From Heterohyrax brucei (lineage: Eukaryota > Chordata > Mammalia > Hyracoidea > Procaviidae), in contig CM053140.1 of assembly GCA_028571685.1 (NCBI GenBank), positions 222,599,323 through 222,663,322 on the forward strand: 64,000 nucleotides of DNA, given 5' to 3'. The notes below the pieces were generated by a model, which ran no database searches, was not told the DNA's origin, and saw only the letters and a list, made by a program, of their open reading frames with translations. Position 1 is the first letter of the stretch. Each line of letters starts with the position of its first letter. Of this stretch, positions 2,412 through 42,871 are shown piece by piece. The translations under genes and the position numbers were made by a program.

Positions 2412-2608
2412 GTCTGATAAGAGGACAGAGACAGAGCTCATCAGGGAACTCAGCCATTTTAGACATTAGCCCACAGCAGCTCCACCGGCTGGAATAAAGC
2501 CTCTTCCTCTTATAAGCATAGGTGTTCAGGTGATTCTTGCTGTCAGCCCTCATTTTTATTTCTTCCTGCGTGAGTCGGATCTGACTCGACAGCACTTGGC
2601 TGGCAACA
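2412..2608 (+). repeat. 5' LTR, 3' part only
   Basis: The stretch aligns with 10623-10787 at the other end of the provirus, including the AATAAA signal (about 2495) and the T-rich end CATTTTTATTTCTTCCTGC. The first 200 or so bases of the LTR are missing. The cut edge abuts L1 at a TCTG microhomology, which suggests a deletion rather than normal integration. Four bases before its terminus the LTR holds a 35-bp foreign insert (2570-2604). Confidence 0.85.
2570..2604 (+). mobile_element. 35-bp RTE/SINE 3'-end micro-insertion in LTR
   Basis: Compared with the 3' LTR, which reads CTTCCTGCAACA, the 5' LTR has 35 extra bases between CTTCCTGC and AACA. The extra segment holds GAGTCGGATCTGACTC, a near-palindrome typical of RTE and AfroSINE 3' ends, followed by a tail ending ACTTGGCTGGC. 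I see no convincing target-site duplication. The insert is absent from the 3' LTR, so it arrived after provirus formation. Confidence 0.75.
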
Positions 2609-16855: not shown

Positions 16856-17074
16856 TCTTGTTGCTGCCATCAAGTCAATTCCGAATTATAGAGACCATAT
16901 AGCACAAACAACTGCCCCGTAAGGTTTCCCAGGCTGTATTCCTGACTAAAGCAGACTGCTAAGTCTTTTCAGAACAGCTGGTAGGTTTGAATTGGCAACC
17001 ACTCAGTTCGAGGGCACTTGGCACTTGGCTGGCAGTTACCAGCTGAGCACTTAACCATCACACTACCGGCACTC
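16856..17074 (-). repeat. AfroSINE, longer subtype, carrying a micro-insertion
   Basis: The copy runs from TTGCTGCCATCAAGTCAATT to CACTTAACCATCACACTACC and includes the subtype's extra segment (GGCTGTATTCCTGACTAAAG). A 24-bp foreign piece with its own duplication interrupts it at 17009-17032. Confidence 0.85.
17009..17032 (+). mobile_element. 24-bp RTE/SINE-tail micro-insertion
   Basis: CGAGGGCACTTGG followed by CACTTGGCTGG lies between two copies of CAGTT (17004-17008 and 17033-17037). Removing it and one CAGTT restores a normal AfroSINE text. The piece is the last bases of a GACGGCACTTGG-type end with a repeated tail. Confidence 0.7.
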
Positions 17075-23815: not shown

Positions 23816-25237
23816 AAATATATTCACTACTGTGTATTGTGTTTTAAGTGAAAGTTTACAGCATGACAGTTTCTTATTCAAAAATCTCTACACAAACTGT
23901 TTTGTGACATTGGTTACAATCTCTGCAACATGTCAGCAGTCTCCTCTTTCTACTTACAGCCCTGGTTCTCTGTGTACATCCCTTTGAGTTTTCGGTCTCT
24001 TCCTGCCTTCTTATCTTTGATTTGGGCAGGTGTTGCCTATTTGGTCTCATAGGCCTGATTGAACTGAGAAGCACATTCCTCACCTGTGTTGTGTGTTTTA
24101 TAGGTTTATTTAATTTTTTGCTTAAACATTGGACTTAAGAAGTAGCTTCAGGTCTGAGTTAGCAGGATGTCTGGGGGTCGTAGTCTCAGAGGTTTCCCCA
24201 GTCTTTGTAAGACCACTAAGTCTGATTTTTTTTGTGTGTGAACTTGAATTTTTTGACTATACTTTTCTCTAGTTGTTTCCAGGACCCACTCTTACAATCC
24301 TTTTCAAAACTGTTACCTGTGGTATGTGAGCACTGTCTAGTTCTTCAGGGCTCATGCTTGTGGAGGCTGTGTTGGTGTGTTCTGTTAGGCCTTTGGCCTA
24401 ACGTTTCCCTGTGGCTTTCATTTTCCTCATTCTCCTTTGCTCTGAACTTGATAGGATCAGTTGATGTATTTTAGATGACTGCAAGCAAGCTTCTAAGACC
24501 CCAGATACTAATCATCAAAGTAGGAAGTAAAACACTTTATGAACTATATTGCATCAGTTAACCTCCTCCAAGAACACGGTACCTGGCCCTCAGTACCTCA
24601 AGATATTTGGATGTCTCTAAGAACTTTCTATGGCTTCGCCTTGGTCAAGTTGTACCAACTTCACCTATATTGTGTGTTGTCTTTTCCTTCACCAATGTTA
24701 ACACCTGTCTACTATCTAGTTGGTGATAGCCCATCCCCATTCCTTCCTTTCCTTGTAATCATCAGGTTGCTTTTTGTGTTTTTTTTCACTCTGTGTAAAC
24801 TTTTTTTTAATTTTTGTTAATAATGGTCTCACAATGTTTGCCCTTTTGTGACTATTTCACTCAGCATAATGCCCTTCAGATTCACCCATGTTGTGAAACG
24901 TTTTGCAGATTCATCACTGTTCCTTATTGCTGGATGGCACTCTGTTGTGTGTGTATATACCACAGTTTGTTCATCCATTGATCTGTTGATGGGCACTTAC
25001 GTTGTTTCCATCTTTTTGCTACTCTCGATAATGCTACAATGAATGTGGGTGTGTTTATTCTTGTGACAGCTCTTATCTCTCATGCTGCTGGACTGTATGG
25101 TATTTCTAACTTTTTAAGGAGTCATATCATTTCCTGTAGTAGTTATACCATTTTATACTCCCATCAAAAGTGCGTAAGAGTTCTCCCTTACAACCTCCTC
25201 AACATTTGTTGTTTTCTATTTTTTGGTGCCAGCCAGC

Positions 25238-25750
25238 CAAGCCAAGTGCCATCGAGTCAGATCCGACTCATGGCCAGTAATGTGAACAATAAAATTCAAA
25301 ATGGTTTATCTTTGGAACAAAGAACAAGAAGTTACTAGTTAACCTAAAAGAAGAGGTGAATGGTGGGGGAGGGGAAACCTGTTCAGGAAACAGGAGATGG
25401 AATGTTTTTATCCCGTAGTACTCAGCCAGTGGGAACTTGGGGAGGGACTCCCGAGTTACAAGATATAAGGGGCTTGTAAGGAACTGATCGGAGATCGCTC
25501 CTCTCTGCTTAGCCTCCTTTCTGTGCTCAGGCTCAGGACTTTGCAAAATGAACCAATGAAGCCTCACTCTCACTAACTGAATTCAAATTGGACTTCTTGA
25601 GCGTTCCAGAAAAAGACACTGGTAACTACCTGTCGGTGACGGCATGCCTAGACCACCAAGGCAGATTCCGAGCTGGAGGCTTATATGGCCTGCCAGTTGC
25701 CAAGAGAAACTGGAACAATGTCTGGGGTGCTGACAACGTTTCTCACAGTA
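25238..25750 (-). mobile_element. Unclassified insertion with RTE-type end
   Basis: L1 text stops at TTTTGGTGCCAGCC and resumes about 510 bases later at GGGTGAGCTGTTG. Read on the minus strand, the insert ends with the near-palindrome GAGTCGGATCTGACTC and a TTGGC/TGGC tail, as in the micro-insertions. On the plus strand, part of it looks LTR-like (TATA-like GATATAAGG at about 25462, a T/C-rich segment after it). It could be a long copy of the micro-insertion source, or a retroviral fragment carrying that end. No clear TSD. Confidence 0.5.
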
Positions 25751-36499: not shown

Positions 36500-37709
36500 G
36501 AACTATTAGTTCCAGTATTTTTCATTTGTTTGGGTTTTCTATATATAAGAGCATGTCATCTGCAATTAGACATACTTTTACTTCTTCTTTACTGCAGCAG
36601 ACATCCTTTATTTCTTTATCTTGTCTGATTGCTCTAGCTAGAACCTCCAGCACAATGTTAAATAAAAGTGGTGGCAATGGGCACCTTTGCCTGGTTCCGG
36701 TTCTCAGAGGGAATTATTTTAGTCTCTCTCCATTCAGGATGATGTTAGCTGTTGACTTTGCATAGATACCCCTTATTACATTGAGGAGTTTCTCTTCTAT
36801 TCCTATTTTGCTGAGAGTTTTTAACGTGAATGGATGTGGACTTTGTCAAATGCCTTTTCTTTCTCAATTGATAAAATCAAATGATTCTCATCTTTTGCTC
36901 CATTTATGTGGTTGACTACATTAATTGTTTCTCTAATGCTGAAACATTCCTGCATCCCTGGAATGAATCCTCCTTCTTCATGGTGAGTTATTTTTTTGAA
37001 ACGTTGTTGAATTCTATTGACTAGAATTGTATTGAGGGTTTTTGTGTCTAAGTTCATGAGAATTACTGGTTTGTAATTGTCCTTTTTTTGTGCTATCTTT
37101 ACCTAGTTTTGGTATCAGAGTTATGCTGGCTTCATAGAATGAGTTTGGGAGTATTCTATCCTTTTCAAGGATGTGAAATACCCTCGATAGTATTGGTATT
37201 AACTCCTGTCTAAAAATTTGGTAGAATTCTCCAGTGAAGCCTGCTGTGTCAGAACTTTTTTGGTTGGTCGCCAAGCCAAGTGCCGTCGCGTCGGATCTGA
37301 CTTTGGTTGGTAGCTTTTTAATTACTTTTCCAATCCTTTCTTTTTTGATAGATTTATTAAGTTGTCCTACTTCTGCTTGTGTTGGTTTTTGTAGATAACG
37401 TGATTCTAGAAATTTATCCATTTCTTTTAGTTTTTCAGATCTATTAGAGTACAGTTTTTCATAATGTTCTGTTACAATTCTTTTAATTTTATCTGGATCT
37501 GTTGTGAAATTGCCCATGTCATTTCTTACTTGGGTTGTTTGTTTCCTCTCCAGTTTTTTTTTCTGTGAGTTAGGCCAATAGTTTAGCAATTTATTGATCT
37601 TTAAAAAAAAAAATCTTTTGATTTTGCTAATGCTTTCAGTTGTTTTTCTATTCTCTAATTCATTTAGTTCTGCTTTAATTTTTATTATCTGTTTTCTTCT
37701 GGTGCCCAA
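36500..37709 (-). pseudogene. L1-A ORF2 reverse transcriptase, broken
   Basis: The 231-residue frame at 37014-37709 covers the start of the RT ([34 protein letters not shown]). The next frame (36821-37057) continues with [12 protein letters not shown] and motif A reading [11 protein letters not shown], where Glu stands in for the usual first Asp. The ADDM core of the second catalytic motif is visible in the minus-strand text near 36550. The micro-insertion at 37269-37301 lies inside the 231-residue frame and adds eleven codons without breaking it. The enzyme would have copied L1 RNA at the target site. Several frame breaks make the gene dead. Confidence 0.85.
37269..37301 (-). mobile_element. 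33-bp RTE/SINE 3'-end micro-insertion with perfect TSD
   Basis: CGCCAAGCCAAGTGCCGTCG and then CGTCGGATCTGAC are flanked by exact 10-bp copies of TTTGGTTGGT at 37259-37268 and 37302-37311. L1-e at the same place (about 42730) reads on without it. On the minus strand the insert ends with a GGCACTTGGCTTGGC-type tail. Confidence 0.9.
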
Positions 37710-40941: not shown

Positions 40942-40978
40942 GCCAAGCCAGCCAAGTGCCATCGAGTCGGAAAAAAAA
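40942..40978 (-). mobile_element. 37-bp RTE/SINE 3'-end micro-insertion
   Basis: GCCAAGCCAGCCAAGTGCC then ATCGAGTCGG, followed by eight A residues, breaks the L1-B ORF2 end text. GCAGA occurs on both sides (40937-40941 and 40979-40983), a possible short TSD. Confidence 0.75.
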
Positions 40979-41999: not shown

Positions 42000-42871
42000 A
42001 TTGTCTGCATATACAATTACATCATCTGCAACCAGGGAGATTTTTACTTCACTGCTGATACAGATACTGTTTATTTCTCTGTCTTGTTAATTGTTCTGCC
42101 TAGAACTTGTAGCACAATGTTGAATAGAAGTGGTGAGAGTGGGCATCTTTGTCTAGTTCCCCTTCTCAAAGGGAATTCTTTCAGTCTTTCATCATTTGGG
42201 ATGATGAAGGCAGTTGACTTTGCATAGATGCCACTAATTGCATTGAGGAATTTCTCCTCTATTTCTATTTTTCTGAGATTTTTTTAACATGAATTTGTGT
42301 TTGATTTTCTAAAATGCCCTTTCTGCATCAATTGACAAAATTAGGTGATTCTTATCTTTTGTGTTATTTATGTGGTTGATTACATTAATTATTTTTCTGA
42401 TGTTGAACCAGACTTGCATCCATGGAATGAAACCAACTTGATCATGACTTTTTTATTTTTATTTTTTGGTATGCTGTTGAATTCTGTTGGCTAGAATTTT
42501 GTTAAGATTCTTTCATCTAGGTTCACGAGTGATATTGGTCTGTAATTTTTTCTTGTGCATGGGATTTTTCCCTGGCTTTCGCATCAGGGTTATGCTGGCT
42601 TCATAGAATGAATTTGGGAGTGTCCCACCCCTTCCTATAGTATGAAATATCCTCAATAGTATTGGAGTTAACTTTTCTCTAAAAGTTTGGTAGAATTTTC
42701 TGGTGAAGCCATCTGGGCCAGGACTTTTTTTGGTTGGCAGATATTTCATGACTTTTTCAATCTCTTCCTTTGTGATAGATTTATTAAGTTGACCTACTTC
42801 TCCTTGTGATAATCTTGGTGGGTGATATGATCTAGAAATTTGCCCATTTCCAGTAGGTTTTCAAACCTGTT
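42000..42871 (-). pseudogene. L1-B reverse transcriptase, broken
   Basis: The 78-residue frame at 42513-42749 (KKSPGPDGFTRKFYQTF, then SFYEASITLMRKPGK) is the start of the RT, and a VADDVIVY-like core is visible in minus-strand text near 42015. The MaLR LTR cuts the domain on its N-terminal side at 42872. Confidence 0.85.

Follow-up and report, generated by a model that had tools for sequence, protein, structure and literature searches.

In afrotherians the short interspersed elements known as AfroSINEs, and RTE1_LA as their RTE partner, have been described by Gilbert, Pace and Waters (2008, as cited in PMC3747384 and PMC13295347). For LINEs of the RTE clade a Tn-TA target pattern has been described (PMC13295347), and a similar pattern in elephant RTE is attributed in that paper to Gilbert et al. 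Truncation at the 5' end is a feature of such LINEs, with giraffe RTE for instance retaining 0.32% full-length copies (PMC8620236, PMC13295347).

The insert considered here lies at positions 37269-37301 of the window, by which is meant the whole stretch of 64,000 nucleotides of Heterohyrax brucei DNA that was analysed, and is probably a retroposed stub, an RTE-clade LINE having copied an AfroSINE-type RNA and let go of it after some 20-50 nt. It splits a repeat that we take, in line with the original prediction, to be an L1 (37259-37311). The features of the site are as follows.

37259..37268, no strand, left copy of the 10-bp target duplication TTTGGTTGGT (read directly, with a swapped-flank control)
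37269..37301, minus (sense) strand, insert of 33 bp made up of a 14-nt piece of a 16-nt palindrome with two letters changed, the tail GACGGCACTTGGCTTGGC and one G (read directly and by family comparison)
37302..37311, no strand, right copy of the 10-bp target duplication TTTGGTTGGT (read directly)
42668..42841, minus strand, L1 paralog with an empty site (by alignment; about 80-81% identity to both flanks of the insert)

The two 10-bp repeats that bracket the insert are exact, and in the swapped-flank control an exact duplication of 10 bp or more arose by chance in 0.05% of pairs. A second L1 paralog without the insert is found at locus L005 (about 80% identity to both flanks; the row L069 is the same place as L005), and the length difference between the filled site and the empty paralogs is 43, that is 33 for the insert and 10 for the duplication. 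When the filled junction was sought in 3,487,966,737 bases with up to 2 mismatches allowed, one exact match (the window itself) and one match with 2 mismatches (on contig 18) were returned; the latter may be a separate insertion. Because the filled junction is so nearly unique genome-wide, and with empty L1 paralogs in hand, inheritance of the 33 bases with the L1, the outcome that would have refuted the original prediction, is rejected. Slippage is likewise rejected as the origin of the insert, which is an unrelated 33-bp sequence with a family of its own across the genome. The claim that the insert was made by retrotransposition and not by slippage is supported by the target duplication, the two empty paralogs and the junction.

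The size of this family was estimated in a searched genome of 3.49 Gb, in which all repeat counts are lower bounds. The tail 18-mer GACGGCACTTGGCTTGGC is present in at least 21,711 exact copies against 0 for its reversed control, which excludes chance as the source of the family. At least 9,588 exact copies were counted for the 16-mer GAGTCGGATCTGACTC (control 1), at least 1,315 for a 29-mer reaching through CTTGGC (control 0), at least 11,275 for the palindrome with its tail and relaxed CpG sites (control 0) and at least 10,390 for the palindrome with 12 more upstream letters and any tail (control 0). Places of the 16-mer at G000:C1:21.48-23.05 Mb recur about every 185-205 kb on one strand, in what looks like a large tandem or segmental duplication. 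The end of the element had been described as a near-palindrome; a palindromic end is indeed present, and is best read as a perfect palindrome, GAGTCGGATCCGACTC, worn at its CpGs, since exact perfect copies and both decayed forms occur among nine CpG-relaxed places for which letters were obtained. The two near-palindrome forms arise because the palindrome is perfect in some copies and CpG-decayed in others. The original prediction had also linked the insert to sites at 2570, 17009, 25238 and 40942 of the window, and all four are members of the family, a long target duplication being found at none of them.

2571..2604, plus strand, family member of 34 bp with no convincing target duplication (sequence read)
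17009..17033, plus strand, family member of about 25 bp with a doubled CACTTGGC tail and CAGTT on both sides (5 bp; 17004-17008 and 17033-17037)
25228..25274, minus strand, family member of 47 bp with no clear target duplication (sequence read)
40942..40970, minus strand, family member of 29-30 bp with GCAGA on both sides, 8 A (40971-40978, plus strand) preceding the second GCAGA

The run of 8 A between the last of these stubs and its GCAGA repeat may represent additions at the 5' junction or old target. Elsewhere two stubs of the same family lie about 200 bp apart within one L1 (L005, at about positions 1281 and 1500 of the locus).

The lengths of the inserts depend on how copies are collected. 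The fetch by the 16-mer GAGTCGGATCTGACTC, in which 68 of the 100 matches listed were taken (eight as L001-L008 and 60 more, with 8 places in an evenly spaced, apparently duplicated block skipped and 24 more places not taken), favours copies with a whole palindrome, and for this reason a length-blind set of 34 copies was built. It comprises 14 copies from the window and the flanks of fetched loci and 20 fetched by the tail 18-mer alone, these last being picked, before their sequence was seen, by list position among 100 matches listed; the first 25 Mb of contig 1 supplied 20 of the 34. The subset of 14 consists of 16 non-anchor matches, less three judged to be chance (L015:597, L050:1044 and window 15193) and the doubtful L063:1626, plus two copies at L096 from a further search that otherwise gave two copies already included, and the shuffled control for the non-anchor matches gave 2, 4 and 1. 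L099 and L003 are one insertion, carried by a duplicated segment, and only L099 was counted. Inserts in the length-blind set measure 18-66 bp with a median of 32.5, being 50 bp or shorter in 33/34 and 30 bp or shorter in 13/34, where inserts below 18 bp are invisible for 20 of the 34 copies owing to the search word and the ends of homology may shift by a base or two through chance matching. Upstream of GACGG the copies extend for 0-48 nt (at most 28 nt in 33/34, and not at all in 4/34), and 20 of the 34 5' ends fall inside the palindrome or at its 3' edge.

Among 72 copies that retain the whole palindrome, the 5' end lies 0-14 nt upstream of it in 46, 15-25 nt in 8, 26-60 nt in 12 and more than 60 nt, within the SINE body, in 6 (7/73 if L021 is counted). 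This set leaves out L024, L043 and L044 (duplicates), L002, L014, L016, L018 and L023 (other tails) and, in error, L021, which was also left out of the target-site (111 copies) and empty-site (92 copies) sets discussed below; L022, L026 (a long copy), L030, L032, L054 and L061 were removed by a tail check, and from the 29-mer fetch only L080-L098 were added, the eleven other loci being repeats of earlier places. The statement that these insertions are almost always cut to their last 24-37 bases comes close, the range being 18-66 bp, the median 32.5 and 33/34 no longer than 50 bp. With six long copies among the 72 that have a whole palindrome, the TTGGC-tail family consists of more than stubs.

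It is these longer copies that point to the source element. They combine the TTGGC tail with an AfroSINE-like body, and in L008, L035, L049, L052 and L058 they carry upstream letters resembling a B box; a SINE of the TTGGC-tail type therefore existed. The name AfroSINE and the reference letters used in this comparison are in part our assumption for the TTGGC-tailed copies. The 3' end of AfroSINE is common to the stubs with certain differences, namely GGATCC for GGAATC and the tail TTGGC, and the longer copies with the same tail support the predicted 3' end of AfroSINE/RTE type joined to a TTGGC tail. Neither the 33-bp insert nor any of the 34 length-blind copies, which reach 66 bp at most, has a tRNA-derived 5' part and B box, and the stubs would be derivatives of AfroSINE and not complete members. 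A search of 317,591 bp, directed at the tail and not at LINEs, revealed no partner LINE with a TTGGC tail, and the LINE-like ends seen there carry CTAACAACAA tails. Some older AfroSINE-like copies (window 31338 on the minus strand, L086:2933 and L035:436) seem to run from the B-box side to the palindrome without the central hairpin part. The locus L021 (G000:C1:12518840-12521855) has an older-looking long SINE body, GGATCTGACTC and the first part of a CACTTGGC tail, and is perhaps an intermediate between tail families. Divergence outside CpG sites amounts to 3.7% for the tail (59 loci) and 5.9% for the body (15 long copies), which at an assumed rate would make the TTGGC-tail family some tens of millions of years old.

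When loci were chosen by the palindrome alone, TTGG was present in the tail window of 55 out of 65 distinct ones (in L023 only through a chance TTGGG), and in none is the palindrome followed within 60 nt by a run of 8 A. Such a run was seen in one of the 35 copies formed by the length-blind set and L063, at L017, where it is part of the duplicated target; a poly(A) tail as in L1-driven processed copies is thus absent from these two samples.

A control for the shortness of the stubs is provided by families with other tails, sought in the same 317,591 bp. Searches for the tails GTGGGTTT and CTAACAACAA, with TTGGC copies excluded, gave 34 and 29 matches, more mismatches being allowed since these tails are older. 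Matching sequence more than 28 nt upstream was present in 43/63, nine of the remaining 20 being apparent chance matches with no palindrome, compared with 0/14 TTGGC-tail copies (0/18 with chance matches kept; Fisher p 1.7e-6 and 7e-8, respectively). A copy was called long at a far score of 14 or more, the 99% level of random sequence being 13, and the 43/63 and 0/14 were counted by hand. The 33 matches to the tail CTGGGTTT, which largely coincide with places already counted, were kept out of the 63 and would add at least 2 long copies. As copies with the TTGGC tail are short and those with other tails in the same DNA mostly long, shortness goes with the tail family and not with the mode of search.

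Evidence on how the copies were inserted comes from their flanks. Exact target duplications of 9 bp or more flank 7/34 copies of the length-blind set against 0.1% of swapped flanks, leaving 27/34 without one by script, or 26/34 if a 13-bp duplication at L110 that was read by eye, outside the scripted count, is included. At the same locus (G000:C1:15596465-15596662) a perfect 22-bp fold-back of the target is seen at the 5' junction of the stub, and the fold-back and duplication together likely reflect a template jump during insertion. In the loci of the first fetch (n=68, including a few other elements and duplicates) a duplication score of 10 or more was reached by 21% against 0.7% in the control. 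Paralogs without the insert were found in the DNA examined for 20/92 copies, a count that includes the doubtful L063 and imperfect alignments; the net gain in length was 31-53 bp in 18/20, while the two others, which are longer copies, gained 97-98 bp. Eight of these 20 comparisons suggest that a few target bases were lost and not doubled. Duplications with a score of 8 or more number 24 among 111 copies, and of these L048 and L091 lie implausibly far downstream and are probably chance, while six belong to copies longer than stubs. Across the 24, T is favoured at -13 to -10 (11-14/24) and at -1 to +1 (13-14/24) and A at +2 (10/24), on a background of 28% T and 29% A. A T-run with TTA at the nick site is accordingly a preference of TTGGC-tail copies and not a rule, some of the 24 duplications being weak. 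With regard to membership in RTE-clade target-primed retroposition, flanking duplications are present (7/34, and 10 bp at 37259-37311), most copies having shorter ones or none, and the T-run about 10 nt upstream with TA at the start of the duplication is also found.

The process that we consider probable would begin with the protein of an RTE-clade LINE binding the 3' end of an AfroSINE-type RNA, that is the palindrome hairpin and the TTGGC repeats. The LINE would nick the target close to a TTA or TA that follows a T-run, and copying would start from the tail; the reverse transcriptase would then leave its template after a few tens of nucleotides, and the cDNA fragment would be joined to the other strand, with filling of the staggered cut giving rise to the target duplication. 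In the TTGGC-tail family early release would be very frequent, so that most copies would measure 18-50 bp. The sequence, the duplications, the empty paralogs, the target preference, the length distribution and the occurrence of some longer SINE copies with the same tail are observed; we infer the RTE engine, the hairpin as recognition signal and early loss of the template as the cause of shortness.

The predicted RNA contains the palindrome hairpin and an upstream stem of 14 bp, and as a whole (94 nt) folds at -42.3 kcal/mol with a z of -2.3. The other SINE family shares this 14-bp stem at nearly equal strength (-20.0 vs -23.6 kcal/mol) and yet consists mostly of long copies. The shortness is therefore not explained by RNA structure alone, and the idea that truncation is due solely to a strong hairpin is weakened. 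Within the palindrome, copies end at a rate of about 0.04-0.08 per nt (34-copy set). In the 72-copy set this hazard is about 0.06-0.08 over the 15 nt immediately upstream and 0.02-0.04 beyond them; the 34-copy set yields 0.16-0.17 for the positions adjoining the palindrome on its upstream side, on few copies. A moderate effect of the hairpin is possible, given 0.06-0.08 near the palindrome against 0.02-0.04 beyond. The profile is what would be expected of an enzyme that frequently releases its template, somewhat more so near the stem, but it does not distinguish this from templates that were already broken.

Such templates form the basis of the strongest alternative, in which cleaved or decayed 3' fragments of SINE RNA that kept their tail were copied by a normally processive enzyme. 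The scatter of 5' ends, which are not fixed and often lie where a short unpaired segment separates the two predicted hairpins, and the peak in hazard just upstream of the palindrome would both be explained; against this, most matches to the other tails are long (43/63 in the same DNA) and 20/34 5' ends fall inside the palindrome or at its 3' edge, where cleavage of paired RNA is less expected. On balance we think this alternative unlikely. Less likely still is the filling of double-strand breaks by repair that copied an abundant SINE RNA without an endonuclease-made nick. Many stubs do lack clear duplications and some sites seem short of a few bases, as this would predict, but the clear duplications show a nick-site preference and 55/65 palindrome-picked copies run into the tail, where filler would be expected to start or end anywhere (a partial point, as tailless pieces fall outside the search). 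Later trimming of a long SINE or LINE insertion, or inheritance with the L1 subfamily, is very improbable, as no evidence for either was found, the 10-bp duplication adjoins the stub at 37269-37301, two L1 paralogs lack the insert and the filled junction has one exact match and one with 2 mismatches genome-wide.

The number of stubs can be estimated from their density. The 14 copies in 317,591 bp correspond to about 154,000 per genome (95% range 84,000-258,000), or, without the window, which was itself chosen for a stub finding, 9 copies in 253,591 bp to about 124,000 (57,000-235,000); these figures are rough because the sampled flanks all lie on contig 1, each surrounding a further copy of this element or of a related one. 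We see an even chance that one retrotransposon family has spread mainly as stubs, its insertions, on the order of 100,000, consisting of nothing but the 18-50-nt recognition end. If so, a reverse transcriptase that is efficient in binding, nicking and priming, yet barely able to extend, can scatter micro-insertions through a genome over a long time, and the stubs, as a class, would evade ordinary repeat annotation; judged by length alone, repeat finders are likely to miss them. They would be, to our knowledge, the smallest well-documented product of target-primed reverse transcription. They chart the minimal RNA required by the LINE machinery, a hairpin and a tail, with 4/34 copies having the tail and none of the palindrome, and would allow the processivity of a reverse transcriptase to be measured from genome sequence alone. 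Should the density of 14 copies in 317,591 bp hold, stubs are a large source of 20-50-bp insertions, and with their sharp ends they could serve as phylogenetic markers.

AfroSINE, its RTE partner, the 3' hairpin and 5' truncation are all known parts, and it is a tail family consisting almost wholly of 18-50-bp stubs that was not found described in the open-access literature, although an earlier description (Gilbert et al., 2008) is possible, and the term 'unrecognised' in the original prediction carries that reservation. Like AfroSINE and RTE1_LA, the stubs have the 3' end GAGTCGG...GACTCGACGGCAC and the longer copies a SINE body, and the T-run and TA target pattern resembles that of elephant RTE as cited in PMC13295347. 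They differ in a tail of TTGGC/TGGC units where AfroSINE and RTE1_LA have GTGGGTTT or CTAACAACAA, and in that 33/34 length-blind copies are 18-50 bp. Loss of the 5' side through an early end to reverse transcription is shared with 5'-truncated LINEs, including BovB/RTE of ruminants and reptiles (PMC8620236, PMC13295347), but those copies are given as less than 1 kb or below full length and the portions of the two papers drawn on here note no class of tens of bases. Tailless retropseudogenes (PMC5322556) are also truncated pieces of retroposed RNA scattered in the genome; they depend on L1 and lack a 3' tail, whereas the stubs keep the 3' end and lose the 5' part. Finally, the model of a 3' stem-loop as recognition signal is shared with zebrafish ZfL2 (PMC4176376), which belongs to a different LINE group, the L2 clade, and for which that source reports experimental tests, whereas for the stubs we infer hairpin binding from sequence.
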